Of a stretch of DNA of 64,000 nucleotides, positions 9,925-53,070 are shown piece after piece. How positions within the stretch are numbered: position 1 is the stretch's first letter; each line of letters starts with the position of its first letter. The notes under the pieces are model-generated. The model did no database searches. It worked only from the letters and a program-made list of their open reading frames with translations, and was not told the origin of the DNA. A program made the translations under genes and the position numbers. Source of the stretch: Chondrosia reniformis (lineage: Eukaryota; Porifera; Demospongiae; Chondrillida; Chondrillidae); assembly GCA_947172415.1 (NCBI GenBank), contig OX359193.1, positions 3,156,501 to 3,220,500 of the forward strand, given 5' to 3'.

Positions 9925-11694
9925 AAAATCTAATATACCATTTTCCTACATGCTATATGCCTATTCTGTAAAAAAGCCTATAGGGGAACTAAACCTAAAG
10001 AGAGCTTTAGATGAAGATACAGGAGTCTTTTCTTCCTTCTTTTCCCTTCTTTCATCTTCTTCTCCACTGGGTCAGACAGCCGTTTCTGGGAATTCCACCC
10101 TTCATCAGTGATCATGGGAGTCTTTGTCTTTTTTTATCTTGATCTTCTGTGAATCTTTGGCTCTCTATGCTAAATCTAGGGGCCTTATATACAGTATTTT
10201 GGCGCCAAAAGTTAAATAAGGTGTTAACTAAGACACATGATGAAATTTTATTTTATGAAAGGAATGTAGGTCCAATTAACTTTATGAATTAATTATAAAT
10301 CTATTAGTATTCTTGCTTATAGGTAAAACAGACTCAGCATATAACTATAGACACAAATAGGACATATTACATAAGTCTACCCTTAGGTCTTCTAGTAGTA
10401 ACATTTCTTTGGAGGTGGGGTAACACAATACGGGGTAACACAAGACAGTCCTTAAGCATACTAGCTACTTTTTGCTTATACTTGATTCTAACTAGAGGCT
10501 GCTGGGATAGGAAGGTTTTAAAGGTTGATTTTAGCTTAAAGTATTTGTAACCCTGTTTAATAAGCCTACTGCATAACTGCAAACGTTTAGACTGAAAACT
10601 GGAGAAGTCACTACATATTCTGGAATACCTAATTAGTTGTGAAATAAAGACACCATAGGCTGGGGTATTGGGAATATTACTATCTAAATGGGGGAAATTT
10701 ACTATATCAAAGTTAAAGTCCTCTCGCCTATCATATACTTTAGTGATAAATTGATTGTTATTAATGGTTATATCTAAGTCTAAAAAGGGGGATTTCCTAG
10801 GGCTGGTATTTGTCTTTAAGAATAAGGTCTTTGGGGTAAATATCACTAATTGTCTGTTCAAAATCGTTGTTGTTAATACATATGAGGTCATCAATATACC
10901 TATAAGTATTGGAAAATTTAATAGCTAAGGTGATGTTATCCTTAAGTAGTCCTTTCATAAACTCATACTCATAGGCAAACCGAAGAAGATTAGCAACTAC
11001 AGGGACACAGTCAGTACCCATAGGGATACCTACACATTGCTTAAATACAGAACCGTCTACACATACATAAATGTTGTCAATAAGGTAGTTAAAGAGCTAT
11101 ACTTAATGAACAGCTGTGACTGCTTTATTCGAGACATTGTTAGACCAAAAGGCTTTATCCTGACACACTTCTTACAGGTATAGGCACTATGAATAAGGTT
11201 AGTAATCTTGTCTTTAAGTAGGTTATGGGGGATCGCTGTATATAAGGTAGAAAAATCAAAACTAGCTAGCTGGGCTTTTCTAGTGGGTATAGACCTAAGA
11301 CTATCTAAGACTTCTAGTGAGTTTTCTACTATTCAAAAGGCATTAACACCAGTATTCCTATATATACCTAGGCATTTTTCTCTAAAATGTTTGAGAATTA
11401 GTCTGAGTGCTGAATTTAGAAATCTAAAAAGGGGTTTGGTAGAACATTTGTGAGAGGCAGCTATGAATCTGTAGCTGTAAGGGTTCTTATGTAGCTTAGG
11501 CATCCAGTAAAAAGAGAGAAGGTTACACCAGTCTGGTTTAGGTTCTAGGTTCTCTAGTTTTAAGAAATCTATGTGTTTCCTAATTAACTGTTGGGGTTCT
11601 ACTGTACACTTAGCATAAGTGGAGGTACTGCCTAGTTCTTCATTAATAATTTGTCAATAGTAGGACTTACATATAAATATTATTATTATTATTA
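9925..11694 (-). pseudogene. Penelope-type retroelement RT fragment 1, broken
   Basis: The minus strand encodes parts of a reverse transcriptase: an FDFSTLYT-like motif A region, MGTDCVPVVAN (motif B), NTYRYIDDL (motif C, catalytic DD) and FLDLDI followed by the NFPHLDSNIP and ISQLIRYSR stretches. This RT type is widespread in aquatic invertebrates and looks Penelope-like, although no GIY-YIG domain is seen in the fragment. Its 5' part is missing and the remaining coding region is broken in several places, so I treat it as a fossil. About 440 bp of non-coding 3' sequence follows to 9925 and includes a hammerhead-like core. It sits in satellite with TTATATG at both edges. An ATT microsatellite marks the truncated end. 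Confidence 0.75.
10070..10113 (-). ncRNA. Hammerhead-like ribozyme core in the 3' region of RT fragment 1
   Basis: On the minus strand, in the same sense as the RT, the order fits a minimal type I hammerhead. GAUCA (stem I) is followed by CUGAUGA (conserved box) and AGGG...CCCA, a stem II of three pairs. Then come GAAAC, the loop GGCU, the cleavage triplet GUC, and UGA pairing back into stem I. A two-pair stem III under a four-base loop is the miniature form reported for Penelope-like elements. Stem I is short (three pairs) and an unpaired A sits on each side of stem II. Activity is inferred, not shown. Confidence 0.55.
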
Positions 11695-14600: not shown

Positions 14601-15600
14601 TTGTATGTACTATATAGTACAAGTTATATATATTAGTTATATTTACCAGTTATATTTACTAGTTGTTTGTACTGGTTGTATGTACTAGTTGTATGTACTA
14701 GTTGTAGCACTAATTCTATGGACTAGTTGTATGTCCTAGATGTATGTTGTAGTTGTGTGTACTAGTTGTATGTATTAACTGTATTTATTAGTTATGTACT
14801 AGTTGCATGTGCTAGTTCTAATATGTACTAGTACTAGTAATATTTACTAGTTTTAGGTACTAGTTTTATGAACTACTTGTATGTACTAGTACTAGTACTA
14901 GATATATTCAGTAGTTGTAATAGTTGGAGGTCTAGTTTGATGTACTTGTTGTATGTCCTATTTATATGTACCAGTTATATGTGAATGTTCTAGTCATAGG
15001 TACTATTTGTAAGTACAAATAGAATAAACTAGTTGTTACTACTAGTTGGACGTGCAAGTTGCATGTACTAGTTGTATGTACTAGTTGTAGCACTAATTGG
15101 ATGGACTAGTTGTATGTACCAAATGTATGTACTAATTGTGTGAAATAATTATACGTCATAGTAGGATTTCCAGTTTAATGTACTAGTTGTATGGACTGTA
15201 TATATGTACTAGGTAAATGTGCATGTTATAATCATAGGTACTAGTTGTATGTGCTAGTTGTATGAACTAGTGGTATGTACTAGTTATATATAATATGGTA
15301 TGTACTATTTATATGGTCTAGTTGTATGTACTATTTGTATATACTAGTATATGTACTACTTGTAGGTTCTAGTACTAGTTAAACCAGGTACTAGGTAGGT
15401 GCTAGTTGTATGTACTAGCACTAGTTATATTTACTAGTTTTAGGTATTAATTGCATGGACTTGTTGAATGTTATAGTTGTATTTACTGATTGTATGTACT
15501 AGTTGTATGTACTAGTTGTAAGAACTAGTCATGTAGTAGTTGTATTAACTAGCTGTATTTACCATTACTGGTATATTTAGTAGTTGTAAATACTAGTTGT
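11695..15600. repeat. 13-bp satellite array, tract 3
   Basis: The part from about 12110 to 13020 repeats the block seen at 1370-2260, including the landmark GTACTAGGAAGGTACTAG. Near 14890-15040 the array shows the usual left flank of the 122-bp repeat (GTTGGAGGTCTAG and onward) but continues uninterrupted, so this is an empty paralogous site. The final 15 bp, GTAAATACTAGTTGT (15586-15600), form the left target-site duplication of LINE-1 copy 1. Confidence 0.93.
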
Positions 15601-15722
15601 GTCGTGGGAATTGGAGGCTGTGGTTCCGAGCTGACAAGAGGATGGGTATTGTCCAGTTCAACCCCCCGACGGAGCAGGGTGCTTAGCCCCTCATGTGGCA
15701 TCCTGTGGCTAAATCAGCCTCC
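15601..15722 (+). ncRNA. HDV-like self-cleaving ribozyme at the 5' end of LINE-1 copy 1
   Basis: Numbered from 15601: P1 GUCGUGGG (1-8) pairs with CCCGAC (65-70) across one bulged U. P2 GGAGGCUG (13-20) pairs exactly with CAGCCUCC (115-122). P3 GGUU (22-25) pairs with AACC (60-63). CC at 26-27 can pair with GG at 71-72 as P1.1. An extra hairpin GAGCUGACAA/UUGUCCAGUUC (28-37/49-59) extends L3. P4 CAGGGUGC (75-82) pairs with GCAUCCUG (98-105). J4/2 reads UGGCUAAAU, as in the antigenomic HDV ribozyme, with C109 as candidate catalytic base. The 5' nucleotide is exactly the LINE start fixed by the target-site duplication. R2-type LINEs are known to use such ribozymes. Confidence 0.72.
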
Positions 15723-18700
15723 CTGCCAGTATGGGCTAACCCCCGTCTGGCAGCTTCACTGGGTTACGTTACGTCATGACAATGAAAATTTTCAAGACAG
15801 GCTGTGGCCTAGGTGCACCAGTGGTGAAGAAAACCCTGGGTCAACCAGAATAGGTGATTCCACTGGTGCCTCACAGGTAGATGTACCTGAATGTAATAAC
15901 CCTTCTTCGGTCCCCGTGACGGGCCAACCAGCCCTCTGGACCGAGGAAATGGTTAGGGCACTAATTGATTGCTTTGAGGGATCTGAACCCAAAAGAGGTA
16001 GCTATCAAAAGCGTTTAGAGCGGGAATGGCTGAGCAAATACCCACATTTGCCTCAGACCGGTCGAACCCTTGCCTTCCAAGCCAAAAGGAGCTTGGTAGG
16101 AGACGGAGTACTGCAAGTAACAGGTAGCCGAGATTTAGATTTGGTTAATGATGCACCGCAAGGTGCTTCTAGAAGAAGGATCCAAGGGGTGATCTGGAAC
16201 CTTCAGAGGGATAATATCCTCATGGAGCTCTACCGAGAAAGTAAGCCCATGGAAAAGGGGTATGCCGAGCGGTTGTACCAGGCTTGCAATGCTGCAATGC
16301 CAGACCATAAAACCACAAAGGTAGCACTAACTACAAGACTTAGTAGAATCCGAAGAGGTCAAGGTCTCTCGAGACTAAACCTTGTGGAACCTAACTCTTG
16401 TGGTGTAGCCACCCTAACTGGGACTGTGGAGGAAGGTGTGGGAGCCCAGGGACAGGGGAAGCTTCACCAAGTTCAGGCTGGGACTGAACAAAATGGTGAG
16501 CTGCCTGCAGTCCCTGTTGAAACTCTTACACATGATCATCCCAGTCCCAGGACAAGTGGCAATGATCATCTGATGCAACTTTTAGGCAAAGCAAAAGATG
16601 CCTGTCTCCGAAAGAAACCTGGAGATTTCTCTGGTAGAAAACCCTGTGGGGGGGTGCGGTTCAACCATGTTGATACGGCACTGCTCCGGGAGGCTAATGA
16701 TTGGGTGGAAAAAGAGTGGCAGGAAGGTCCTAGGTCGGCCTGGCACCTGAACTGCCTGGTCTACTCTGTTGCTATGGCTGTGAGGGAAAAAACAACCTAC
16801 GAATCGCAGCCATGCAACCAAGGAAGGAAATCATATAATCAGAAGGGAAGTAAGAGACAGGAAGGTCACGTAAGTGACAGGAAGGCCAAGGGCCTTAGGT
16901 TTAGAAGACCGCTTGCCTGGTTGGATGTGGAAATAGTACGTCAACAGAATAATAATCCTATGACCAAACGCCAGAAAGTACTCCGAAGAATGCTTAGGAG
17001 GGAGTTCCATTCATGAAACCTGAAGGTGCTGATCAGAGCTCGGGAACAGACACTGGGGAAACTCAGGGTCTGGACCCCACAAGAGCGAAGATCGGCTGAA
17101 CACAGGAAATTCCAGGAACAAAACCACCTTTGGAATACCCAAAGGAAGTTCTGAATGAATGGCAATGTTCCAACCTCCAATGAAGCTCCCTCAATTGAGG
17201 TAGTAAGAGACTTTTGGACAAAGATTGTAGGTACTGTTGGTAAGGTCAACAAAGACGACCCAGGGGTGAAAGAATGGCTAAAGGAAACCAAAAAGAGGGT
17301 GGGTAGAACCTCCTCTGAAGGTCCCGATAGCATTGATGAGACCAAACTGAGGAAGGCCTTGAAAAAGGCAAAAAGCTGGTCTGCCCCTGGGCCGGATGGC
17401 ATCCACACTTTTTGGTGGAAAGCACTCCCTTCTGCACAGTCTGCCTTGGCAGATGTACTACGGAGGGTGGTGAGCGGAGATCTGTCAGTCCCAGACTGGC
17501 TTACAAGGGGTCGCACTCTACTCATCCCCAAAAAGGGTGACCCGAAAAGTGCGGCCAACTACCGATCTATTGCGTGTCTCAACACAATCTACAAGGCTGT
17601 CACAGCAAACATTGCGTCAGAACTACTCACTTACACCTACACTAATGATCTTTTGCCTATGGCCCAAAGGGCCATGAGGAAAGGGAGGTGGGGCTGTGTG
17701 GACTGTCTACTGCTGGATCAATCAATCGGTCTAGATGCCAAAATTATGGGCAAGCCACTTAGTGTGGCATGGATCGATTATGAGAAGGCATATGACAGAG
17801 TCCCTCACAAGTGGGTGATGAAGGTGCTAAAAGCCATCAAGTGCCCAGGTTGGATCCGGAGGTCTATAGAGCTCTTCTCCAAACACTGGGCTACTGTGCT
17901 TGAGTTGAGGACTGCAGGGAAGGTGGTTAGGAGCACCCCTGTTAAATATAACAGGGGACTCTTCCAAGGAGACTCCTTATCGCCACTCCTCTTTTGTCTG
18001 GCCATAGCTCCCATATCCCAAGTTCTTAACAGAACCAAGGGATATACCCTCTGGCATGATGGGGAAAGGAACACCATGTCACACTTGTTGTACATGGATG
18101 ACCTTAAGATATATGCTGGAGGGCCTGATAAACTCAGGGAAGCCATGGAATGTGTGGAGAAAACCTCAAATGCCATTGGCATGAGGTTTGGAGTGAGAAA
18201 GTGTGGAACAGCTCACATGCAAAAGGGGAAAGTTCTGGCTGGCCCAGACAACCCTGAACGCAGTGAAGAATCCATAAGAAGCCTTGAAAAAGGTACTACC
18301 TATAAGTACCTAGGGCTAGAACAACTGTTTGAGGTAGATGACAGCAAGGTCAAAGCTTGCTTGATCAATGAATTGAGGAGGAGACTCCACAAAGTGTGGG
18401 GCTATCACCTTAATGGTCAGAATGCTGCAGAAGCCTCTAACATGTTGTGTGTCTCTCTACTGAGATACTCTTACCCAGTTTTGAGGTGGACACAAAGTGA
18501 GCTTCCAAAACTGGACCGAATGGTGAGAAAGATCATGAGAAAGTACCAGTGTCATCACTATAACTCTGCCATTGAAAGAGTGAATTTGCTTCGCTCTCAA
18601 GGTGGTAGAGGGCTCTGTAGTTTTCCTTTGGATCACGACAGGGCTGTTGTGAATCTGGCAAGATACCTCCATACTGCCAATGATCCACTCATAGCTGTTG

Positions 18701-19689
18701 TGGTTAAACACCAAAAGTGGCTGGAGTGCTCAAAGCAGAGGAGGACTGTCTTGAAAGAAGCCAGATTGATACTGAGAAGCCACGGAATAGAACTAGAACC
18801 GGAAATGTGGCTGAAGACAGATCCCTCACAAAATAGTGTAAGAGAATGGAGGAGAGTGGCACGTGAGCTCCGGGAGGCTCAGACTGAAAGGTTAAAAAGT
18901 AACCTAGCCAAAAAGTCTCACCAGGGCTCATACCACACACAAGTCACAAATAGGGAGTCTTATGTGTGGCTTTCTGAGGGGAGACTCAGACCTCAAACTG
19001 AGGCTCTGATTCTCGCAGCCCAAGATGATGTGCTGCACACTAGGTGGTACCAAAATAGGATTCTGAGGAATTCTAGCCTCCTAATGTGCAGAGAATGTGG
19101 CAAGGCTATGGAAACGGTCAAACACATACTAAACATGTGTGAGCCCAAGGGATTTTCTCTCTACAAAGAGAGACATGACCGGGCAATACTGATAGTGTTG
19201 TGGAGACTGTTGAAAGAATATGGATTCAAGCAGGAAGAGCCCTGGTACAAACTAGAAGCAAAACCAGTCTATGAGAATAGGGCTGTCAAAATCTTGTGGG
19301 ATCCTAGTATCCCTACAGATGATGAAATGACAGAAAGAAGGCCAGACTTAGTGGTTGAGGATCGGCTATGTAAGTCCATCTTCATTATTGAGATGTCAGT
19401 TTCTACTGACAGTAATATTAATGGAAGATGGCAAGAGAAGTTCCAAAAGTACCAGAAGCTGGCAGCTGATATGAGGAAACAATTTAGGGGCTACCGAATT
19501 AAGGTAGTCCCGATGATAATTGGTGCTTTGGGGACAGTGGACACGCTCTTGGAAGACCTAAGTGGAATTCCAAAGCTGTCAAAAAGTGCAGTAGAAGTGA
19601 TGAGAGCGATGCAGAGAACTGTTCTCTGCTCGGCTGTAAGGATATTGAGGCGACATCTATCTGTTGAGGGATTGGGGCCTGGACGATAA
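15604..19689 (+). pseudogene. LINE-1 copy 1 RT-endonuclease ORF with two nonsense codons
   Basis: This is the copy 1 counterpart of the long ORF in copy 2. It is in one frame throughout but is interrupted by TGA at 17014-17016 and by TGA at 17152-17154, where copy 2 has TTA and CGG. The downstream part (17155-19689, 844 codons) keeps the reverse transcriptase (WIDYEKAYDRVPH, FQGDSLSP, YMDD), the CX2CX8HX4C knuckle and the restriction-like endonuclease. The upstream part holds two Myb/SANT-like segments. In this copy the frame is also open through the ribozyme region back to a GTG at 15604. Copy 2 differs there by the length of a C run and has a stop at 44199. No in-frame ATG precedes the Myb-like region in either copy. 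Probably non-functional. Confidence 0.85.
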
Positions 19690-19896
19690 GTAGTCCTGTC
19701 CCAGTCCTTGCCTGTTGACCTCTGGAAAGTAGTGGTGGATTTGTGTATGGAGGTACTCCCTCCTATTATGACGGTCAACTTTGGCCCAATGTGCACCTGT
19801 CTGCTGCTGCCGGAAGGAGGCAAAGCCGAGGCTTCTGGCTAAAAACCCAAAGAAAGGAAAACATAACTGAATGAGGGTTGTCCAAGCCGGATACTC

Positions 19897-19920
19897 CTTG
19901 CCTTAGTAAACTAAGGCAAG
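19897..19920 (+). other. LINE-1 3' UTR stem-loop, copy 1
   Basis: CTTGCCTTAGT and ACTAAGGCAAG are exact reverse complements separated by two bases, giving a 10-bp stem under a four-base loop about 40 bp before the LINE 3' end. The stem is unchanged in copies 2 and 3 (48363-48386, 54902-54925), while the loop differs in copy 2. It is a plausible RT-binding structure for target-primed reverse transcription. Confidence 0.7.
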
Positions 19921-19958
19921 AAGTAACAAGGTTCTCCATTAAGGCTTTTGTTTCTAAA

Positions 19959-20596
19959 GTAAATACTAGTTGTAAGTACTATATAGTTGTATGTTCTAGT
20001 AGAAGTTATATTTACTAGTTGTAGGTATTAGTTGTATGTCCTATTGTATGTAGTAGTTGTATGTTGTAATTGTATGAACTAGTTTTATGTACTAGTTGTA
20101 TGTACTAGTTATATACTAATGTGTGTACTAGTTGTATGTACTAGTTGTACGTACTAGCACTGGTTTTATTTTACTATTTGTAGGTATTAGTTGTATGTAC
20201 TAGTTGTGTGTACTAGTTGTATGTTTTAATTGTATGAACTAATTTTATGTACTAGTTGTATGTACTGGTTATATACTAGTTGTATGTATTAGTTGTATAA
20301 ACTAGTGGTATGTACTAGTTGTGTACTAGTTGAATGTATTAACTGTATGTATTAGTTATGTACTAGTTGCATGTGCTAGTTCTTATATGTACTAGTACTA
20401 GTAATATTTACTAGTTGTAGGTACTAGTTTTATGAACTACTTGTATGTACTAGTACTAGTACTAGATATATTCAGTAGTTGTAATAGTTGGAGGTCTAGT
20501 TTGATGTACTTGCTGTATGTACTATTTATATGTACCAGTTATATGTGAATGTTCTAGTCATAGGTACTAATTGTAAGTACAAATTGTATGAAATAG
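19959..20596. repeat. 13-bp satellite array, tract 4
   Basis: The tract begins with the right target-site duplication of LINE-1 copy 1. It then continues GTAAGTACTATATAGTTG, which matches the uninterrupted array near 23440. It ends with the conserved flank (GTTGGAGGTCTAG and onward) that precedes each 122-bp repeat block. Confidence 0.93.
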
Positions 20597-41107: not shown

Positions 41108-44063
41108 GTACTAGTTGTATGTATCTACTAGTCATAAGTATTAGCTATGTACTAGTTGCATATACAAGTTGTATGTTCTAGTATTATGTATTCGTTCTAT
41201 GAACTAGTAGTATGTACTAGTTGTATGTAATAGTTGTATGTTCTAATTGTATGAACTAATTTTTATATACTAGTTGTATGTACTGGTTATATACTAGTTG
41301 TATGTATTAGTTGTATAAACTAGTGGTATGTACTAGTTGTGTGTACTAGTTGTATGTATTAACTGTATGTATTAGTTATGCACTAGTTGCATGTACTAGT
41401 TCTAATATGTACTAGTACTTGTAATATTTACTAGTTGTAGGTACTAGTTTTATGAACTAGTTGTATGTACTAGTACTAGTACTAGATATATTCAGTAGTT
41501 GTAATAGTTGGAGGTCTAGTTTGAAGTACTTGTTGTATTTATATGTACCAGTTATATGTGAATGTTCTAGTCATAGGTACTAATTGCAAGTACAAATTAT
41601 ATGAAATAGCGTACCAAAGACTGTTTCTAGGTTAAAAATGCCTGCCAAATTTGATTAAAGGGTCCCTGAAGCTCTAAGACCTATCTCTGAGTGACAATTA
41701 GCTACAAATTTCTAAAATATGGGCTATGAAAGCGTACCAAAGGCCGTTCCTAGGATAAAATTGGCCGCCAAACTCAATAAAAGTGTCCCGGAAGTTCTAC
41801 GACTTATGTCCAAGTTAAAATGGCTGCCGATTTCAAACATATAGGCTGTGAATCTGTACCGTAGACTGTTCCTAGGATAACAAGTAGTTCGAGTTTAAAA
41901 ACTTACTCGAACTACTTGGCCGCATCGTTTGGCTTTGACATATTACTCTTAATCCTAACAATTGAGGACGCTTAAGTGTCCTAAAAATTATAAATAGCGA
42001 CAGAATAGCTTCGTTAACTAAAGCTTCCTGAATGCCACCATTTGCAAAAACGATGTATTGACGTATAACTTAAGTGTTACAATAGTTGCGTATGAACTCG
42101 TATTATACATCTATCGACCTATAAAATGTGTTTTAATAGTTGCGTATGAACTCGTATTATATATATATTTATGTATAAATATATAAATATCCGTAACATG
42201 AAGCCATACATAAATCGCATTATGAAAACAATAGTGGGGGGCAACCCCTAAAAATGGCTGCCGAACTCTATTAAAGGGTCCCCTGTTTGTATTATTTATA
42301 TGTACTAGTTATATTTTTATCTATTAGTTATATGTAGTAGGTGTTTGTACTATTTATATGTACTAGTTATATTTTTATGTATTAGTTATATGTGGTAGGT
42401 GTTTGTACTATTTATATGTACTAGTTATATTTTTATGTATTAGTTATATGTATAGAGTAGGTGTGTGTACTAGTTATATGTAGTAGTTGTATGTATATAC
42501 TAGTTGTATGTTCTAGTTGTATGTACTAGTTGAATGTACTAGTTGTAGGTTCTTGCACTAGTTATACTTGGCACTAGGAAGGTACTTGTTGTATGTACTA
42601 GTTGTATGTACTAGTTTTATGAACTAGGTGTATGTTCTAGTTGCACGTACTATTTATAATAATTGGATATATGTGTATTTACTAGTTATATGTAGTAGGT
42701 GAATGTACTATTTATATATCCTAGTTGCTATTACTTGTATGTAGTAGCTATGTACTACTTGTATATACAATTTGTACGTTCTAGTATTATGTACTCGTTC
42801 TATGAGCTGGTTGTATATACTAGTTTCTAGTTGTATGTACTACTTGTATGGACTAGGTGCATGGGCTATGTGTATGTACTATTTATAAGCACCAGTTATA
42901 TGCGTATGTACTAGTTATATGCTTGTGTACTAGTTATCTCTACTAGTTGTATGCACTAGCTGTATGCACTAGTTGTATGAACTATTTATAATTTCTAGGT
43001 ATATGTGTATGTACTAGTCATATGTAGTAGATGAATGTACTAGTTTTAGATATGTCCTAGTTGTTTGTACTAGTAGTATGGACTAGTTGTATGTACTAGT
43101 GGTGTGTAGTATTTTGATGTACTAGTTGCATGTACTAGTTTTATGTACTAGTACTAGTTATATTTACTAGTTGTAGGTACTAGTTATGTACGAGTTGGAT
43201 GCACTAGTTTTATGTATGAACTAGTTGTATGTAGTAGCTATATACAAGTTGTGTATACAAGATATACATTCTAGTATTATGTTCTCGGTCTATGAACTAG
43301 TTGAATGTCATAGTTGCAAGTACTAATTGCATGTTCTAGTTGTGTGTATTATTTGGTATGTACTAGTTGTATGTACTAGTAGCATGTATTAGTTGTATGC
43401 ACGAGTTTTATGAACTAGTCCTAGTTATATTTACTAGTTGTGGATACTAGTTGTATGTAGAAGTTGTATGTAGTAGTTGTTTGTTCGAATTGTTTGTACT
43501 AGTGGAATGTACTAATTGTATGTAATAGTTATGTACCAGTTGTACGTACTAGTTGTATGTATCTACTAGTCATAAATATTAGCTATGTACTAGTTGCATA
43601 TACAAGTTGTATGTTTTAGTATTATGTACTCGTTCTATGAACTAGTAGTATGTACTAGTTTCTAGTTGTACACACTAGTAGTATGTACTAGTTGTATGTA
43701 CTATGTGTATGTACTAGTTGTTGGTTCATGTACTTGTTATACTAGATACTAGATAGGTTGTAGTTGTATGTACTAGATACTACTTGCATGTACTAGTTGT
43801 ATATACTAGCTTTATGTAGTAGTTGTATGTACTATTTATATGTACTAGTTATATGTGCCAATTATATGTACCAGTTATATGTACTAGTTTTATGAACTAG
43901 TGACTAATTGTATGTATAAGTTGTATGTACAAGTGACTAATTGTATGTACTAGTTGTATGTACTTGTCGTTTGAACTAGTTGTAGGTTCCAATACAAGTT
44001 ATACTAGGTATTAGGAAGGAACTAAGTTTTTGTACTTGTTGTATGTACTATTGTTATGTACTA
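41108..44063. repeat. 3021-bp higher-order unit, copy 3 of 3, cut by LINE-1 copy 2
   Basis: About 2956 bp of the unit are present up to TATGTACTA, where LINE-1 copy 2 starts. Sequence beyond the LINE does not resume the unit for more than about 14 bp. Differences from the other copies include ATAAAATTGG for ATAAAAATGG near 41758 and ATATTTACTAG near 43427. Confidence 0.9.
41881..42248. mobile_element. Hairpin-ended element, copy 6
   Basis: Passenger of the third 3021-bp unit; same ends, internal repeats and flanks as copies 4 and 5. Confidence 0.8.
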
Positions 44064-44184
44064 GTCGTGGGAATTGGAGGCTGTGGTTCCGAGCTGACAA
44101 GAGGATGGGTATTGTCCAGTTCAACCCCCGACGGAGCAGGGTGCTTAGCCCTTCATGTGGCATCCTGTGGCTAAATCAGCCTCC
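44064..44184 (+). ncRNA. HDV-like self-cleaving ribozyme, LINE-1 copy 2
   Basis: It has the same P1/P2/P3/P1.1/P4/J4-2 arrangement as at 15601. The only differences are one fewer C before the P1 3' strand and a C-to-T change in the P4 loop (CCCTTCATG), so neither disturbs a helix. The 121-nt length and the exact coincidence with the LINE 5' end support the assignment. Confidence 0.72.
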
Positions 44185-44231
44185 CTGTCAGTATGGGCTA
44201 ACCCCCCGTCTGGCAGTTACACTGGGTTACG

Positions 44232-47200
44232 TTGCGCCATGAGAATGACAATTTTCAAGACAGGCTGTGGCCTAGGTGCACCAGTGGTGAAGAAAACCCT
44301 GGGTCAACCAGAATAGGCGATTCCACTGGTGCCTCACAGGTAGATGTACCTGAATGGAATAACCCTTCTTCGGTCCCCGTGACGGGCCAACCAGCTCTAT
44401 GGACCGAGGAAATGGTTAGGGCACTAATTGATTGCTTTGAGCGATCTGAACCCAAAAGAGGTGGCTATCAGAAGCGTTTAGAGCGGGAATGGCTGAGCAA
44501 ATACCCACATTTGCCTCAGACCGGTCGAACCCTTGCCTTCCAAGCCAAAAGGAGCTTGGTAGGAGACGGAGTACTGCAAGTAACGGGTAGCCGAGATTTA
44601 GATTTGGTTAGTGATGCACCGCAAGGTGCCTCTAGAAGGAGAAGGATCCAAGGGGTGATCTGGAACCTTCAGAGGGATAATATCCTCATGGAGCTCTACC
44701 GAGAAAGTAAGCCCATGGAAAAGGGGTATGCCGAGCGGTTGTACCAGGCTTGGAATGCTAAAATGCCAGACCATAAAACCACAAAGGTAGCGCTAACTAC
44801 AAGACTTAGTAGAATCCGCAGGGGTCAAGGTCTCTCGAGACTAAACCTTGTGGAACCTGACTCTTGTGGTGTAGCCACCCTAACTGAGACTGTGGAGGAA
44901 GGTGTGGGAGCCCAGGGGCAGGGGGAGCTTCACCAAGTTCAGGCTGTGACTGAACAAAATGGTGAGCTGCCTGCAGCCCCTGTTGAAACTCCTACAAATG
45001 ATCATCCTAGTCCCAGGACAAGTGGCAATGATCAACTGATGCAACTTTTAGGCAAAGCAAAAGATGCCTGTCTCCGAAAGAAACCTGGAGATTTCTCTGG
45101 AAGAAAACCCTGTGGGGCAGTGCGGTTCAACCATGTTGATACGGCACTGCTTCAGGAGGCCAATGATTGGGTGGAGAAAGAGTGGCAGGAAGGCCCTAGG
45201 TCGGCCTGGCACCTGAACTGCCTGGTCTACTCTGTTGCTATGGCTGTGAGGGGAAAAACAACCAACGAATCGCAGCCATGCAACCAGGGAAGGAAATCAG
45301 ACAATCAGAAGGGAAGTAAGAGACAGGAAGGTCACATAAGTGACAGGAAGGCCAAGGGCCTTAGGTTTAGAAGACTGCTTGCCTGGTTGGATGTGGAAAT
45401 AGCGCGTCAACAGAATAATAATCCTATGACCAAACGCCAGAAAGTACTCCGAAGAAAGCTTAGGAGGGAGTTCCATTCATTAAACCTGAATGTGCTGATC
45501 AGAGCTCGGGAACAGACACTGGGGAAACTCAGGGTCTGGACCCTACAAGAGCGAAGATCAGCTGAACGCAGGAAATTCCAGGAACAAAACCACCTTTGGA
45601 ATACCCAAAGGAAGTTCCGGATGAATGGCAATGTTCCAACCTCCAATGAAGCTCCCTCAATTGAGGTAGTAAGAGACTTTTGGACAAAGATTGTAGGTAC
45701 TGTTGGTAAGGTCAACAAAGACGACCCAGGGGTGAAAGAATGGCTAAAGGAAACCAAAAAGAGGGTGGGTAGAACCTCCTCTGAAGGTCCCGATAGCATT
45801 GATGAGACCAAACTGAGGAAGGCCTTGAAAAAGGCAAAAAGCTGGTCTGCCCCTGGGCCGGATGGCATCCACACTTTTTGGTGGAAAGCACTCCCCTCTG
45901 CACAGTCTGCCTTGGCAGATGTACTACGGAGGGTGGTGAGCGGAGATCTGTCAGTCCCAGACTGGCTTACAAGGGGTCGCACTCTACTCATCCCCAAAAA
46001 GGGTGACCCGAAAAGTGCGGCCAACTACCGACCTATTGCGTGTCTCAACACAATGTACAAGGCTGTCACAGCATACATTGCATCAGAATTACTCACTTAC
46101 ACCTACACTAATGATCTTTTACCTATGGCTCAACGAGCCATGAGAAAAGGGAGGTGGGGCTGTGTGGACTGTCTACTGCTGGATCAATCAATTGGTCTAG
46201 ATGCCAAAATTATGGGCAAGCCACTTAGTGTGGCATGGATCGATTATGAGAAGGCATATGACAGAGTCCCTCACAAGTGGGTGATGAAGGTGCTAAAAAC
46301 CATCAAGTGCCCAGGTTGGATCAGGAGGTCTATAGAGCTCTTCTCCAAACACTGGGCTACTGTGCTTGAGTTGAGGACCGCAGGGAAGGTGGTTAGGAGC
46401 ACCCCTGTTAAATATAACAGGGGACTCTTCCAAGGAGACTCCTTATCGCCACTCCTCTTTTGTCTGGCCATAGCTCCCATATCCCAAGTTCTTAACAGAA
46501 CCAAGGGATATACCCTCTGGCATGATGGGGAAAGGAACACCATGTCACACTTGTTGTACATGGATGACCTTAAGATATATGCTGGAGGGCCTGATAAACT
46601 CAGGGAAGCCATGGAATGTGTGGAGAAAACCTCAAATGCCATTGGCATGAGGTTTGGAGTGAGAAAGTGTGGAACAGCTCACATGCAAAAGGGGAAAGTT
46701 CTGGCTGGCCCAGACAACCCTGAACGCAGTGAAGAATCCATAAGGAGCCTTGAAAAAGGTACTACCTATAAGTACCTAGGGCTAGAACAACTGTTTGAGG
46801 TAGATGACAGCAAGGTCAAGGCTTGCTTGATCAATGAATTGAGGAGGAGACTCCACAAAGTGTGGGGCTCTCACCTCAATGGTAAGAATGCTGCAGAAGC
46901 CTCTAACATGTTGTGTGCCTCTCTAATGAGATACTCTTACCCAGTTTTGAAGTGGACTCAAAGTGAGCTTCCAAAACTGGACCGAATGGTGAGAAAGATC
47001 ATGAGAAAGTACCAGTGTCATCACTATAACTCTGCCATTGAAAGAGTGAATTTGCCTCGCTCTCAAGGTGGTAGAGGGCTCTGTAGTTTTCCTTTGGATC
47101 ACGACAGGGCTGTTGTGAATCTGGCAAGATACCTCCATACTGCCAATGATCCACTCACAGCTGTTGTGGTTAAACACCAAAAGTGGCTGGAGTGCTCAAA

Positions 47201-48155
47201 GCAGAGGAGGACTGTCTTGAAAGAAGCCAGATTGATACTGGGAAGCCACGGAATAGAACTAGAACCGGAAATGTGGCTGAAGACAGATCCCTCACAAAAT
47301 AGTGTAAGAGAATGGAGGAGAGTGGCACGTGAGCTCCGGGAGGCTCAGACTGAAAGGTTAAAAAGTAACCTAGCCGAAAAGTCTCACCAGGGCTCATACC
47401 ACAGACAAGTCACAAATAGGGAGTCTTATGTGTGGCTTTCTGAGGGGAGACTCAGACCTCAAACTGAGGCTCTGATTCTTGCAGCCCAAGATGATGTGCT
47501 GCACACTAGGTGGTACCAAAATAGGATTCTTAAGAATTCTAGCCTCCTAATGTGCAGAGAATGTGGCAAGGCTATGGAAACGGTCAAACACATACTAAAC
47601 ATGTGTGAGCCCAAGGGATTTTCTCTCTACAAAGAGAGACATGACCGGGCAATACTGATAGTGTTGTGGAGACTGTTGAAAGAATATGGATTCAAGCAGG
47701 AAGAGCCCTGGTACAAACTAGAAGCAAAACCAGTCTATGAGAATAGGGCTGTCAAAATCTTGTGGGATCCTAGTATCCCTACAGATGATGAAATGACAGA
47801 AAGAAGGCCAGACTTAGTGGTTGAGGATCGGCTATGTAAGTCCATCTTCATTATTGAGATGTCAGTTCCTACTGACAGCAATATTAATGGAAGATGGCAA
47901 GAGAAGTTCCAAAAGTACCAGAAGCTGGCAGCTGATATGAGGAAACAATTTAGGGGCTACCGAATTAAGGTAGTCCCGATGATAATTGGTGCTTTGGGGA
48001 CAGTGGACACGCTCCTGGAAGACCTTAGGGGAATTCCAAAGCTGTCAAAAAGTGCAGTAGAAGTGATGAGAGCGATGCAGAGAACTGTTCTCTGCTCGGC
48101 TGTAAGGATATTGAGGCGACATCTATCTGTTGAGGGATTGGGGCCTGGACGATAA
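44232..48155 (+). CDS. LINE-1 reverse transcriptase / restriction-like endonuclease polyprotein
   Basis: A 1307-codon frame opening at TTG; the first in-frame ATG is 44412 and a stop lies upstream at 44199, so non-AUG initiation is possible, as in R2-type elements. Two Myb/SANT-like segments (about residues 55-110 and 138-196) may bind DNA. RT landmarks are WSAPGPDGI (~535), motif A WIDYEKAYD with D671, motif B FQGDSLSP (~735) and motif C YMDD with D778 and D779. A CX2CX8HX4C knuckle lies at C1108, C1111, H1120 and C1125. The restriction-like endonuclease shows RPD (D1194), then E1209 and KFQKYQKL. Nicking by the endonuclease and priming of RT at the nick are inferred from the family. The order matches the R2/R4/NeSL lineage; the exact clade is uncertain. 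Confidence 0.92.
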   Translation: MRHENDNFQDRLWPRCTSGEENPGSTRIGDSTGASQVDVPEWNNPSSVPVTGQPALWTEEMVRALIDCFERSEPKRGGYQKRLEREWLSKYPHLPQTGRTLAFQAKRSLVGDGVLQVTGSRDLDLVSDAPQGASRRRRIQGVIWNLQRDNILMELYRESKPMEKGYAERLYQAWNAKMPDHKTTKVALTTRLSRIRRGQGLSRLNLVEPDSCGVATLTETVEEGVGAQGQGELHQVQAVTEQNGELPAAPVETPTNDHPSPRTSGNDQLMQLLGKAKDACLRKKPGDFSGRKPCGAVRFNHVDTALLQEANDWVEKEWQEGPRSAWHLNCLVYSVAMAVRGKTTNESQPCNQGRKSDNQKGSKRQEGHISDRKAKGLRFRRLLAWLDVEIARQQNNNPMTKRQKVLRRKLRREFHSLNLNVLIRAREQTLGKLRVWTLQERRSAERRKFQEQNHLWNTQRKFRMNGNVPTSNEAPSIEVVRDFWTKIVGTVGKVNKDDPGVKEWLKETKKRVGRTSSEGPDSIDETKLRKALKKAKSWSAPGPDGIHTFWWKALPSAQSALADVLRRVVSGDLSVPDWLTRGRTLLIPKKGDPKSAANYRPIACLNTMYKAVTAYIASELLTYTYTNDLLPMAQRAMRKGRWGCVDCLLLDQSIGLDAKIMGKPLSVAWIDYEKAYDRVPHKWVMKVLKTIKCPGWIRRSIELFSKHWATVLELRTAGKVVRSTPVKYNRGLFQGDSLSPLLFCLAIAPISQVLNRTKGYTLWHDGERNTMSHLLYMDDLKIYAGGPDKLREAMECVEKTSNAIGMRFGVRKCGTAHMQKGKVLAGPDNPERSEESIRSLEKGTTYKYLGLEQLFEVDDSKVKACLINELRRRLHKVWGSHLNGKNAAEASNMLCASLMRYSYPVLKWTQSELPKLDRMVRKIMRKYQCHHYNSAIERVNLPRSQGGRGLCSFPLDHDRAVVNLARYLHTANDPLTAVVVKHQKWLECSKQRRTVLKEARLILGSHGIELEPEMWLKTDPSQNSVREWRRVARELREAQTERLKSNLAEKSHQGSYHRQVTNRESYVWLSEGRLRPQTEALILAAQDDVLHTRWYQNRILKNSSLLMCRECGKAMETVKHILNMCEPKGFSLYKERHDRAILIVLWRLLKEYGFKQEEPWYKLEAKPVYENRAVKILWDPSIPTDDEMTERRPDLVVEDRLCKSIFIIEMSVPTDSNINGRWQEKFQKYQKLAADMRKQFRGYRIKVVPMIIGALGTVDTLLEDLRGIPKLSKSAVEVMRAMQRTVLCSAVRILRRHLSVEGLGPGR

Positions 48156-48362
48156 GTAGTCCTGTCCCAGTCCTTGCCTGTCGACCTCTGGAAAGTAGTG
48201 GTGGATTTGTGTATGGAGGTACTCCCTCCTATTATGACGGTCAACTTTGGCCCGATGCGCACCTGTCTGCTGCTGCCGGAAGGAGGCAAAGCCGAGGCTT
48301 CTGGCTAAAAACCCAAAGAAAGGAAAACATAACTGACTGAGGGTTGTCCAAGCCAGATACTC

Positions 48363-48386
48363 CTTGCCTTAGTACACTAAGGCAAG
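48363..48386 (+). other. LINE-1 3' UTR stem-loop, copy 2
   Basis: CTTGCCTTAGT and ACTAAGGCAAG form the same stem as in copies 1 and 3, but the loop centre is AC instead of AA. It lies 39 bp before the LINE end. Confidence 0.7.
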
Positions 48387-48425
48387 AAGTAACAAGGTTC
48401 TCCGTTAAGGCTTTTGTTTTTCAAG

Positions 48426-49989
48426 TATGTACTAGTTATATGTTCTAATTATTAGTTGTATGAACTAGTTATATGTACTAGGTTGTAGTTGTAGGTACTA
48501 GTTTTATGGACTACTTATATGTAATATGCGTATGTACAATGTATATGTACTAGTTAAATTTTTATGTATTAGTTATATATAGTAGGTGTATGTACTAGTT
48601 ATATGTTCTAGTTGCAAGTACTAGTTGTATTCACTAGTTGTATGGACTAGTACTAGCTATATTTACTAGTTGTAGGTACTAGTTGTATGTGGTAGTTGTA
48701 TGTAGTAGTTTTATGTACAAATTGTATAAACTAGTTGTGTGTTCTAGTTGTATTAGTATATACTAGTTGTATGTACTAGTTTTATGTTCTTGTTGTAGAT
48801 TCTTGTACCAGTTATACTAGGTACTAGGAAGGTACTAGTCGTATGTACTAGAAACTAGTTTTATGTACTAGTTGTATGCACTAGAAATGAATCAGTTGTA
48901 TGTACAGGTTGTATGTACTAGTTGTATTTACTAGGTGTATGTACTAGTTATATGTTTTAATTATTAGTTGTATTAATTAGTTATATGTACTAGTTGTATG
49001 TACTAGTTGTGTGTACTACATGTGTGTACTAGTTATATGTAGTAGTTGTATGGTTTAGTTGTAAGTACTAGTTTTATTTACTAGTTTGTAGTTGTAAGCA
49101 CTAGTTTTATGTACTAAATGTATGTACTAGTTGTATGCACTAGATGTATGTACTATTTACATGTATTAGTTATATGTAGTAGTTGTGGACCAGTTATATG
49201 TGCTAGTTGTACCTATTGGTTGTATATACTAGTTGTAAGGACTATTTGTATGTTCTAGTTGTAGGTTCTAATACTAGTTATACTAAGGAAGTACTAGTTG
49301 TATGTGCTTAACACTAGTTGTACGTACTGGTTGTATGATCTAATTATATGTATTAAATGTATGGACAAGTTGTTGGTAATTGTTGTATGTACTAGTTATA
49401 TGTATTAGTTGTATGTACGAATTGTATGTACTTTACCAGTTGTTTGTACTAGAACTAGTTTTAGGTACTAATTGTATGTACTCGTTGCTACTTGTATTTT
49501 CCAAATACTAGTTGTATGTACTTGTTACTAGTTGTATGAACAAGTTGTAGGTATTATATAGTTGTATGTACTCGTTGCTAGGTGTATGTACTAGTTCAAT
49601 GTATTAGTTTATATACTAGTACTAGTTAAATTTACTAATTGTATATTCTATTTGAATATACTAGTTCTATGTTTGAGTTCTATATACTAGTTATATGAAC
49701 TAGTCATAGTACAAATTGTACGTAATCGATGTACGTACTAGTTGCATGTACTAGTTGTATGTATCTGTTTTATGTAGTCCTTCTATGTACTAGTTCTATG
49801 TACTAGTTGTATTTCTAGGTTTATGTACTAGTGTTATGTACAATTTGTATGAAGTAGATGTAAGTACTATTTGTATATACTAGGTTAATCTACTAGTTGT
49901 ATGTATTCGTTACAGGTTGTTAGTACTAGTTGTATGTACCGGTTTGATGTACTAGTTGTATGAACTAGTTATATAAGTTTAACTCTATA
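48426..49989. repeat. 13-bp satellite array, tract 9
   Basis: The tract contains the fourth copy of the 1370-2260 block (about 48760-49740), with GTACTAGGAAGGTACTAG near 48820. The sequence immediately after LINE-1 copy 2 resembles the array near 11740 and not the 3021-bp unit on the other side of the LINE. The last ~17 bp before LINE-1 copy 3 (ATAAGTTTAACTCTATA) match neither satellite nor LINE and look like filler. Confidence 0.9.
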
Positions 49990-50650
49990 TTGAAACTCCC
50001 ACACATGATCATCCCAGTCCCAGGAAAAGTGGCAATGATCATATGATGCAACTTTTAGGCAAAGCAAAAGATGCCTGTCTCCGAAAGAAACCTGGAGATT
50101 TTGCTGATAGAAAACCCTGTGGGGCGGTGCGGTTTAACCATGTTGATGCGGCACTGCTTCAGGAGGCCAATGATTGGGTGGAGAAAGAGTGGCAGGAAGG
50201 CCCTAGATCGGCCTGGCACCTTAACTGCCTGGTCTACTCAGTTGCTATGGCTGTGAGGGGAAAAACAACCAACGAATCGCAGCCATGCAACCAGGGAAGG
50301 AAATCAGACAATCAAAAGAGTAGTAAGAGACAGGGAGGTCACAAAAGTGACAGAAAGGGCAAAGGCCTTAGGTTTAGAAGACTGCTTGCCTGGTTGGATG
50401 TGGAAATTGCGCGTCAATAGAGTAATAATCCTATGACCAAACTCCAGAAAGTACTCCAAAGAAAGCTTAGGAGGGAGTTCCATTCATTAAATCTGAATTT
50501 GCTGATTAGAGCTCGGGAACAGACACTGGGGAAACTCAGGGTCTGGACCCTACAAGAGTGACGATCAGCTGAACGCAGGACATTTCAGGAACAAAACCAC
50601 CTTTGGAATACCCAACTGAAGTTCCGGATGAATGGTAATGTTCCAACCTC

Positions 50651-50966
50651 TGGGACTGACAGATCTCCGCTCACCACCCTCCGTAGTACATCTGCCAAGG
50701 CAGACTGTGCAGAGAGGAGTGTTTTCCACCAAAAAGTGTGGATGCCATCCAGCCCAGGGGCTGACCAGCTTTTTGCCTTTTTCAAGGCTTTCCTCAGTTT
50801 GGTCTCATCAATGCTATCGGGACCTTCAGAGGAGGTTCTACCCACACTCTTTTTGGTTTCCTTTAGCCATTCGTTCGCCCCTGGGTCGTCTTTGTTGACC
50901 TTACCAACAGTACCTACAATCTTTGTCCAAAAGTCTCTTAATACCTCAATTGAGGGAGCTTCATTG
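50651..50966 (-). other. Clean 316-bp inversion inside LINE-1 copy 3
   Basis: The segment corresponds to 45644-45959 of copy 2 (residues about 471-576, just before and into the first RT motif) but reads on the opposite strand. Left junction: CAACCTC then TGGGACTGAC. Right junction: TTCATTG then GACTGGC. Both flanks and the whole segment are retained without loss or gain. Confidence 0.9.
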
Positions 50967-53070
50967 GACTGGCTTACAAGGGGTCGCACTCTACTCATCC
51001 CCAAAAAGGTGACCCGAAAAGTGCGGCCAACTACCGACCTATTGCGTGTCTCAACACAATGTACAAGGCTGTCACAGCATGCATTGGGTCGGAATTACTC
51101 ACTTACACCTACACTAATGATCTTTTGCCTATGGCTCAACGAGCCATGAGGAAAGGGAGGTGGGGCTGTGTGGACTGTCTATTGCTGGATCAAGCAATCG
51201 GTATAGATGCCAAAATTATGGGCAAGCCACTTAGTGTGGCATGGATCGATTATGAGAAGGCATATGACAGAGTCCCTCACAAGTGGGTGATGAAGGTGCT
51301 AAAAACCATCAAGTGCCCAGGTTGGATCCAAAGGTCTATAGAGCTCATCTCCAAACACTGGGCTCCTGTGCTTGAGTTGAGGACAGCGGGGAAGGTGGTT
51401 AGGAGCACCCCTGTTAAATATAACAGGGGACTCTTCCAAGGAGGCTCCTTATCGCCACTCCTCTTTTGTCTGGCCATAGCTCCCATATCCCAAGTTCTTA
51501 ACAGAACCAAGGGATATACCCTCTGGCATAATGGGGAAAGGAACACCATGTCACACTTGTTGTACATGGATGACCATAAGATATATGCTGGAGGGCCTGA
51601 TAGATCAGGGAAGCCATGGAATGTGTGGAGAAAACCTCAAATGCCATTGGCATGAGGTTTGGAGTGAGAAAGTATGGAACAGCTCACATGCAAAAGGGGA
51701 AAGTTCTGGCTGGCCCAGACAACCCTGAACGCAGTGAAGAATCCATAAGGAGCCTTGAAAAAGGTACTACTTAGAAGTACCTAGGGCTAGAACAACTGTT
51801 TGAGGTAGATGACAGCAAGGTCAAAGCTTGCTTGATCAATGAATTGAGGAGGAGACTCCACAAAGTGTGGGGCTCTCACCTCAATGGTCAGAATGCTGCA
51901 GAAGCCTCTAACATGTTGTGTGTCTCTCTACTGAGATACTCTTACCCAGTTTTGAGGTGGACACAAAGTGAGCTTCCAAAACTGGACCGAATGGTGAGAA
52001 AGATCACGAGAAAGTACCAGTGTCATCACTATAACTCTGCCATTAAGAGAGTGAACTTGCCTCGCTCTCAAGGTGGTAGAGGGCTCTGTAGTTTTCCTTT
52101 GGATCACGACAGGGCTGTTGTGAATCTGGCAAGATACCTCCATACTGCCAATGATCCACTCACAACTGTTGTGGTTAAACACCAAAATTGGCTGGAGTGC
52201 TCAAAGCAGAGGAAGACTGTCTTGAAAGAAGCCAGATTGATACTGGGAAGCCACAGAATAGAACTAGAACCGGAAATGTGGCTAAAGACAGAACCCTCAC
52301 AAAATAGTGTAAGAGAATGGAGGAGAGTGGCACGTGAGCTCCGAGAGGCTCAGACTGAAAGGTTAAAAAGTAACCTAGCCGAAAAGTCTCACCAGGGCTC
52401 ATACCACAGAGAAGTCACATATAGGGAGTCTTTTGTGTGGCTTTCTGAGGGGAGACTAAGACCTCAAACTGAGGCTCTGATTCTTGCAGCCCAAGATGAT
52501 GTGTTGCACACTAGGTGGTACCGAAATAGGATTCTGAGGAATTCTAGCCTCCTAATGTGCAGAGAATGTGGCAAGCCTTTGGAAACGGTCAAACACATAC
52601 TAAACATGTGTGAGCCCAAGTGATTTTCTCTCTACAAAGAGAGACATGACCGGGCAATACTGATAGTGTTGTGGAGATTGTTGAAAGAATATGGATTCAA
52701 GCAGGAAGAGCCCTGGTACAAACTAGAAGCAAAACCAGTCTATGAGAATAGGTCTGTCAAAATCTTGTGGGATCCTAGCATCCTTACAGATGAAGAAATG
52801 ACAGAAAGAAAGCCAGACTTTGTGGTTGAGGATCGGCTATGTAAGTCCATCTACATTATTGAAAGGTCAGTTCCTACTGACAGCAATATTAATGGAAGAT
52901 GGCACGCATGTGTAACATGTCTACGAATTTCCGATTTTTGTAAATCGTCTATTAGCGCATTCAGAGGTGTCACATTCCAGGCGGAAGTGTCTCTAGCATG
53001 TGACCTGCGCGTGAAGCAGAGCACCAGCCACTGAAACGTCACGAGTCATCACTAGTCGTTATCGATGTTA

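Follow-up and report, generated by a model that had tools for sequence, protein, structure and literature searches.

The window analysed here, a stretch of 64,000 nucleotides from the demosponge Chondrosia reniformis (contig OX359193.1), contains copies of a LINE that lies in a 13-bp satellite. A preliminary description of this DNA had proposed that the element begins with an HDV-like ribozyme, which would free its RNA from a satellite read-through transcript. This raises the question whether the 5' end is indeed such a ribozyme, and from which host transcript it would be released. The window lies on contig C5 of 15 genome contigs, and the assembly odChoReni1.1 consists of 14 chromosomes and the mitochondrion (PMC12181767; papers are cited by PMC accession for those portions of their text that were accessible).

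Structure of the LINE and its exact 5' end

Both copies with a 5' end were found at the coordinates and with the sequence given in the preliminary description (Table 1). Its statement that the first base of the LINE is fixed by a 15-bp duplication also held, with GTAAATACTAGTTGT on either side of copy 1. The RT domain of the 1317-aa frame of copy 2 matched Pfam RVT_1 with an E value of 4.8e-29, and the matches of the protein in the PDB were R2-type proteins (best E 2.8e-22). An RPDX14E motif stands downstream of a CCHC knuckle, at the expected place of what we take to be the restriction-like endonuclease signature, and the C-terminus presumably resembles that of the R4/Dong group. The knuckle spacing CX2CX8HX4C fits that of LINEs with a restriction-like endonuclease (PMC5678591). 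No profile matched such an endonuclease in the protein, and an AlphaFold model of the C-terminus was too poor for use (mean pLDDT 35). The element is a single-ORF LINE of the restriction-like-endonuclease type, the endonuclease being assigned by motif only. The frame opens right behind the ribozyme region and has no ATG before codon 71 (44202-44414, ATG at 44412). The protein may thus be initiated without an AUG, or else at codon 71, inside the first stretch that looks Myb-like. Elsewhere in the window, the LINE occurs once more at 49983-53034, in a copy that, judged from its broken reading frames, lacks its 5' part and has an internal inverted piece, and an open frame on the minus strand (10367-10924) looks like part of another RT element, presumably Penelope-like.

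The family is large, since a genome search with the LINE protein gave 579 candidates, 131 of which were scored. Genomic 5' ends were collected in two sets. Set A comprised copy 2 and the best 40 of 212 candidates obtained with the first 160 nt as query, and is biased to full ends. Set B added 60 loci, 40 chosen by RT match (33 of them for low identity) and 20 by matches to the 5' end. Among the 40 RT-chosen loci, 22 had a 5' end, 16 had none (one being all N) and two began inside the element, as did one of the other 20. Altogether 82 loci hold the LINE 5' end, and 76 of these start at G1. When flank-independent insertions were counted (n=58), 52 started at G1 with GT followed by C, T or A, and six differed in the first 1-3 nt. 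Four loci (L131, L136, L137 and L087) have 5' ends with other first three bases (two of the three in L087) and look as if the element had begun at position 4 (GTGGG).

Paired junctions could be read in 19 cases, two from the window and 17 from a set of 20 fetched 3' ends, of which three lacked a recognisable end and were left out. AAGT follows the LINE at 16 of the 19, both in the satellite and outside it. Nine have a clear target duplication of 9-16 nt, at most 1 nt from the junction, and the other ten had shorter or displaced matches.

With L083 and L093 as queries, a search for more divergent members (best 40 of 205 and best 40 of 233 candidates) returned the same family only, and no second family of the restriction-like-endonuclease type was found among the best 150 of 1688 candidates for Pfam RVT_1. 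Twenty fetched RVT_1 loci were not close relatives of the LINE (23-26% identity), and CCHC matches among them had no RPD motif in the printed sequence behind. A scan of viral contigs returned no relative. Giant open frames of 2-5 k aa had been read at first as tandem fusions, which was not borne out by the copies read; the giant-frame copy L061 has N runs beside it, and L063 has no giant frame.

Threading of the first 122 nt as an HDV-like ribozyme

With 15601 as LINE position 1, the first 122 nt of copy 1 thread into a complete HDV-like nested double pseudoknot composed of P1, P1.1, P2, P3 and P4 (Table 1). All the elements named in the preliminary description are present: the perfect 8-bp P2 (GGAGGCTG/CAGCCTCC; 13-20 with 115-122, to which U21-A113 adds if U114 is bulged), the 8-bp P4 (CAGGGTGC/GCATCCTG; 75-82 with 98-105), the 2-bp P1.1 of CC/GG (26-27 with 71-72) and J4/2. 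P3 pairs 22-24 with 61-63. P1 is formed by 1-4 and 6-8 with 64-70, leaving U5 bulged, or by 1-7 with a U5.C66 mismatch, and J1/2 covers positions 9-12. P3', P1' and P1.1 are contiguous, as in the HDV spacing.

The catalytic C in J4/2 of HDV-like ribozymes is followed by NAA, and J4/2 of HDV reads GGCUAA, the same as in the sponge LINE (107-112, or UGGCUAA counting the preceding U), where C109 is the candidate catalytic base. L3 of HDV has 7-8 nt; that of the sponge LINE, as delimited by our descriptor, has 36 nt, consisting of a core (U25 C26 C27 G28 A29 G30) and an insert at 31-60 with a hairpin (31-37/49-56). Described HDV-like ribozymes have a compact L3, for which the texts examined set no upper size. 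U25 and G30 show the spacing U-CC-NN-G of the trans Watson-Crick U/G pair that is a signature of HDV (PMC3386971). The insert begins directly after G30, at the place of C29 in the antigenomic ribozyme, and we infer that an insertion would disturb least at this point.

The threading agrees with the HDV architecture, since the two coaxial stacks P1/P1.1/P4 and P2/P3, the short J1/2 and the 6- or 7-bp P1 described in PMC4908430 all match. It departs from the norm in the bulged or mismatched U5 of P1 and in the extra domain of ~30 nt in L3. Mismatches in P1 have been linked with poor activity, and one or two at the stem top occur in about a quarter of R2 ribozymes (PMC3774820). Alternative threadings with P3 as TTG/CAA and L3 as UCCAGUU, or with P2 as GAGGATG, were dropped by eye because spacers arise between P3', P1' and P1.1, or P2 is mismatched. 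The fold had been claimed for both copies. In copy 2, P1 is weaker because of one missing C at the P3'/P1' boundary, and our descriptor does not match it.

Table 1. Features of the two LINE copies and of the predicted ribozyme (window coordinates)
Feature	Position	Strand	Remarks
LINE copy 1, up to following AAG	15601..19959	+	ORF interrupted: frames 15553-17016 and 17155-19689
15-bp target-site duplication, copy 1, 5' copy	15586..15600	+	GTAAATACTAGTTGT; from sequence
15-bp target-site duplication, copy 1, 3' copy	19959..19973	+	GTAAATACTAGTTGT; from sequence
Predicted HDV-like ribozyme, copy 1	15601..15722	+	Threading and chance test; equals consensus sequence of young copies
P1 5' strand GTCGTGGG	15601..15608	+	G1 predicted first base after cleavage; U5 bulged
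P2 5' strand GGAGGCTG(T)	15613..15621	+	Threading
P3 5' strand GGT	15622..15624	+	Threading
L3 core U-CC-GA-G	15625..15630	+	CC to P1.1; threading compared with PMC3386971 (accessible text)
L3 inserted domain, ~30 nt	15631..15660	+	Hairpin 15631-15637/15649-15656; at place of HDV antigenomic C29
P3 3' strand ACC	15661..15663	+	Threading
P1 3' strand CCCCGAC	15664..15670	+	Threading
P1.1 GG	15671..15672	+	Threading
P4 hairpin CAGGGTGC...GCATCCTG	15675..15705	+	Loop carries the only common shared variant of the ribozyme (LINE position 90)
J4/2 GGCUAA	15707..15712	+	Candidate catalytic C at 15709
P2 3' strand A(U)CAGCCTCC	15713..15722	+	Threading
LINE copy 2, up to following AAG	44064..48425	+	Single open frame
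9-bp target-site duplication, copy 2, 5' copy	44055..44063	+	From sequence
9-bp target-site duplication, copy 2, 3' copy	48426..48434	+	From sequence
Ribozyme region, copy 2	44064..44184	+	One C fewer at P3'/P1' boundary (before GAC)
Open frame, 1317 aa, copy 2	44202..48155	+	RT at aa 597-861 (Pfam RVT_1)
CCHC knuckle CX2CX8HX4C	47553-47606	+	Motif in 1317-aa frame
RPDX14E motif	47805-47858	+	In 1317-aa frame

Chance expectation, covariance models and stability

We compared the threading with 8,928,000 dinucleotide shuffles, each anchored at the start, 15601. In its loose form, the descriptor found a match in 4,111 of them; with P2 and P4 of at least 7 bp each, 11 of 8,928,000 still matched, and with P2 of at least 8 bp, GGC and P4 of at least 8 bp, none of the 8,928,000 did. 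These figures flatter the case, since the descriptor was written after the sequence had been seen and allows an L3 of up to 45 nt. A tenfold error in them would not change the conclusion that the match is more than chance. Within copy 1, the threading is the sole match of the descriptor. An earlier, unanchored version of the descriptor matched at seven starts in the whole window on both strands, and P2 exceeded 5 bp only at 15601, as judged from the first printed match of each start.

The preliminary description had also looked to the HDV covariance model, and this search was negative: at the gathering threshold, Rfam gave no HDV-like ribozyme and no other match in the whole window, and in 15501-15900 up to an E value of 10 it gave only two weak, unrelated matches and no HDV-like ribozyme. 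Such a match is not among the features that define HDV-like ribozymes. The stability of the nested fold of the 122 nt is ordinary relative to shuffles (z -0.41), in a test that cannot score the HDV pseudoknot. In a rough energy sum that leaves out pseudoknot parameters, P1, the insert hairpin and P4 together reach -31.1 with the bases of P2, P3, P1.1 and J4/2 kept free, to which P2 adds -15.3 and P3 -0.9; the value to set beside this sum is -42.3 for the best nested fold.

Variation among genomic copies

Constraint was studied in 50 RT-chosen copies with a 5' end, representing 44 flank groups. Apart from CpG sites, shared variants occurred at 2 of 114 sites in the ribozyme and at 11 of 116 in the next 122 nt, a comparison stretch that is largely coding (Fisher p 0.019). 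The difference was not significant when CpG sites were counted too (7/122 versus 14/122, p 0.17). Of the two non-CpG variants in the ribozyme, the common one falls in the P4 loop and the other at position 117 in P2'. In a second set of 41 young copies (38 flank groups), which is biased by the query, minor alleles were rare or absent in J4/2 and in all helices but P1. They were commoner in P1 and in L4, where they come mainly from position 90. P1 was the helix hit most, with nine minor alleles over 15 sites.

Compensatory changes in the ribozyme helices, for which the preliminary description had proposed to align further copies, were not seen among the genomic copies compared, since these are either too alike or, if old, decayed. 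Changes that break helices do occur in other copies, above all in old ones and often at CpG. Together with the negative covariance-model search, they give the checks set by the preliminary description a mixed outcome. The old loci L070, L072 and L088, which represent two flank-independent insertions because the first two share a flank group, carry GTCGGGG in place of GTCGTGGG, so that the bulged U of P1 is gone. Together with the family sequence CCCCGAC, this would give a perfect 7-bp P1 of -12.8 instead of -9.0 kcal/mol. None of these loci has a perfect P1 today, because each carries another change in P1'.

Insertions in the 18S rRNA gene and in the satellite

Away from the mid-chromosome cluster of copies described below there are some RT matches with full identity to copy 2, at the precision printed, and copies of the LINE were found inserted in the 18S rRNA gene. 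The 3' junctions of these copies read TTTTTC, followed by AAGTAAAAGTCGTAACAAGG and then by the sequence to the end of 18S and beyond. All three readable junctions lie at the same base, on three chromosomes (L061, L165 and L166 on C4, C8 and C10); two further ones, both on C6, are all N. The Rfam model SSU_rRNA_eukarya scored 57.5 and 55.9 bits at two of the junctions and 32.2 bits, below gathering, at the third. The firm part of these matches is the last ~50 nt of 18S, and the LINE letters in front align poorly. The insertions on C8 and C10 are not one assembly copy, because the bases behind 18S differ. The junctions read are thus in 18S and not at the R2 site of 28S.

At L063 (C6:7722000-7727999), parts of two elements stand head to tail, with 99.9% (2128 nt) and 99.7% (3864 nt) identity to copy 2. 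Between them lies AAGTAAAAGTCGT only, followed by GTCGTGGG of the next element. It seems that two elements entered a single 18S site here, and the intervening sequence therefore indicates that insertion into 18S duplicates the 13-nt AAGTAAAAGTCGT. This sequence borders the insertion point on the downstream side; the GAGG upstream of it is that of the Rfam consensus and was not read in the sponge. The first five bases of the LINE, GTCGT, are also the last five of this target duplication, a match that could arise by chance in 1 of 1024 cases. The 5' junctions of the rDNA copies are all N (4/4).

In set A, 34 of the 41 copies have a dense satellite motif within 300 nt upstream, and seven do not (e.g., L017, L022 and L035, with little or no motif). 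Insertions in the satellite occur at varied positions, whereas those read in 18S use one exact base. The copies cluster mid-chromosome, with 1317-aa open frames among them. Matches to the 13-bp satellite itself (best 40 of 6793 candidates; C1 and C3-C14) also lie mid-chromosome, a placement that is suggestive of centromeres; the accessible text of the genome paper does not mention the centromere (PMC12181767).

Discussion

The prediction of an HDV-like ribozyme in the first 122 nt, at the exact 5' end of the LINE, is well supported by the topology, the core nucleotides, the chance test, the fixed 5' boundary and the low non-CpG variation. Taken as a whole, we consider it probable that this ribozyme cuts at G1, that the 18S rRNA gene was the original setting of the element and that the satellite copies are derived. 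The RNA would cleave itself 5' of G1 (15601) and so free the LINE RNA from a longer co-transcript, and the freed RNA would serve as template for target-primed reverse transcription by the restriction-like-endonuclease LINE protein. Originally, the element probably occupied a single site in 18S, directly before AAGTAAAAGTCGT. In a co-transcript made from rDNA, the sequence upstream of the LINE would end AAGUAAAAGUCGU, and the 5' strand of P1 would consist of the last five 18S nucleotides (GUCGU) and the element's own GGG. The cut would then fall 5 nt inside 18S (AAAA^GUCGU), and the resulting RNA would start GUCGUGGG. If GTCGT is host 18S sequence, the 5' junction in rDNA should read AAAAGTCGT-GGGAATT, with a single GTCGT. 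Since GTCGT ends the 18S target duplication, P1 probably contains captured 18S sequence, comparable to R2 and 28S. A P1 borrowed in this way would account for the odd U5 and also for the constancy of GTCGT among satellite copies, which would keep GTCGT (5') and AAGT (3') as marks of their 18S origin.

The host transcript is where this reading parts from the preliminary description. One could suppose instead that the ribozyme mainly frees the LINE from satellite read-through and that the 18S copies are side insertions. The dense satellite motif upstream of most copies and the intact frames within the mid-chromosome cluster would suit this, and there is a precedent in Dong, which was assayed beside TAA repeats (PMC3774820). 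We nevertheless regard it as unlikely: insertion at one exact 18S base on three chromosomes is the mark of a real target, satellite insertions are scattered and some copies have hardly any motif upstream, and 18S bases recur at either end of the LINE. Because one 18S site is used and because of these terminal bases, pre-rRNA co-transcripts are the likelier substrate and source of RNA, which weakens the case for the satellite as host transcript. The satellite copies look like spill-over, and we infer a spread from rDNA to the satellite.

An HDV look-alike that does not cut would be a structured or protein-binding 5' UTR, such as a promoter, an IRES or a pseudoknot to which the LINE protein binds, and the exact 5' end would arise because transcription always starts at G1. 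The fixed start and the conservation would suit a promoter or binding site equally well; the P1 bulge and the L3 insert are unlike known ribozymes, and R2Tg binds pseudoknotted RNA (PMC12222951). It is hard to reconcile with all HDV features standing in register at a fixed start, for which the chance is very small, and with the detailed match of GGCUAA, the L3 U/G pair and the contiguous P3'-P1'-P1.1 to the HDV core; moreover, the match of GTCGT to 18S suits co-transcript cleavage better than an internal promoter. We therefore think this improbable. That the threading is a mere coincidence of a G+C-rich 5' UTR appears very improbable indeed. The missing Rfam match, the ordinary nested stability and the post hoc descriptor would be expected in that case, but the shuffles reached P2 and P4 of at least 7 bp in only the 11 cases and never all features, and the start was set without regard to the fold, by the duplication as well as by 52 of 58 insertions.

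Among LINEs, R2, R4 and Dong are already known to have HDV-like ribozymes at the 5' end. Like R2 of 28S rDNA, the sponge element is a single-ORF LINE found in rDNA, with a restriction-like endonuclease by motif and a predicted HDV-like fold at its 5' terminus. R2 ribozymes often build P1 from upstream 28S bases and cut inside 28S, and the target is duplicated at some R2 5' junctions (PMC3774820). The sponge LINE differs in its target, 18S instead of 28S, in the ~30-nt L3 hairpin domain and in its protein, in which no N-terminal zinc finger was found by eye or with Pfam. It would also cut only 5 nt inside 18S; for most R2 species, PMC3774820 places the cut 9 to 36 nt into 28S. R4 of Ascaris and Dong of Bombyx resemble it in an HDV-like ribozyme that cuts at the element 5' end (PMC3774820) and are of the restriction-like-endonuclease type according to PMC5678591; their hosts and targets are different. 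The Dong ribozyme was assayed with TAA repeats beside it, so that LINEs with a ribozyme already have a precedent in simple repeats (PMC3774820). R8 of Hydra, which belongs to the R2 superclade, also resides in the 18S rRNA gene; the accessible text of PMC5035012, the source for this, gives neither the exact 18S site nor a ribozyme. With the HDV antigenomic ribozyme, the sponge LINE shares the P1-P4 topology and the U-CC-NN-G of L3 with its U/G signature pair (PMC3386971). It differs by the L3 insert at the place of C29, the bulged U in P1 and the bulged U114 in P2, and in its context, a LINE as opposed to a satellite virus. Our literature search, which is no proof of absence from print, found no paper on a LINE of the restriction-like-endonuclease type in a satellite or in a sponge/18S setting. 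As far as the texts examined go, three features are new: the insert in L3, a P1 that probably derives from 18S and, in a demosponge, the double habitat.

More tentatively, and with some doubt on our part, the element might combine a new architectural class of HDV-like ribozyme, with a structured ~30-nt domain in L3 after the signature G and a P1 captured from 18S, with a double life. It would then be expressed and processed from pre-rRNA and accumulate in a centromere-like satellite on most chromosomes, where its 18S-derived AAGT(A) tail would prime on the GTA-rich satellite. If the main reading holds, the LINE would add a demosponge member to the LINE HDV-like ribozymes and show that an insertion is tolerated in the catalytic loop L3. 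Being specific for 18S and drawing its P1 from there, it would extend the borrowing of rRNA for P1 beyond R2 and 28S, and it would provide a datable case of an rDNA element spreading over centromere-like satellites.
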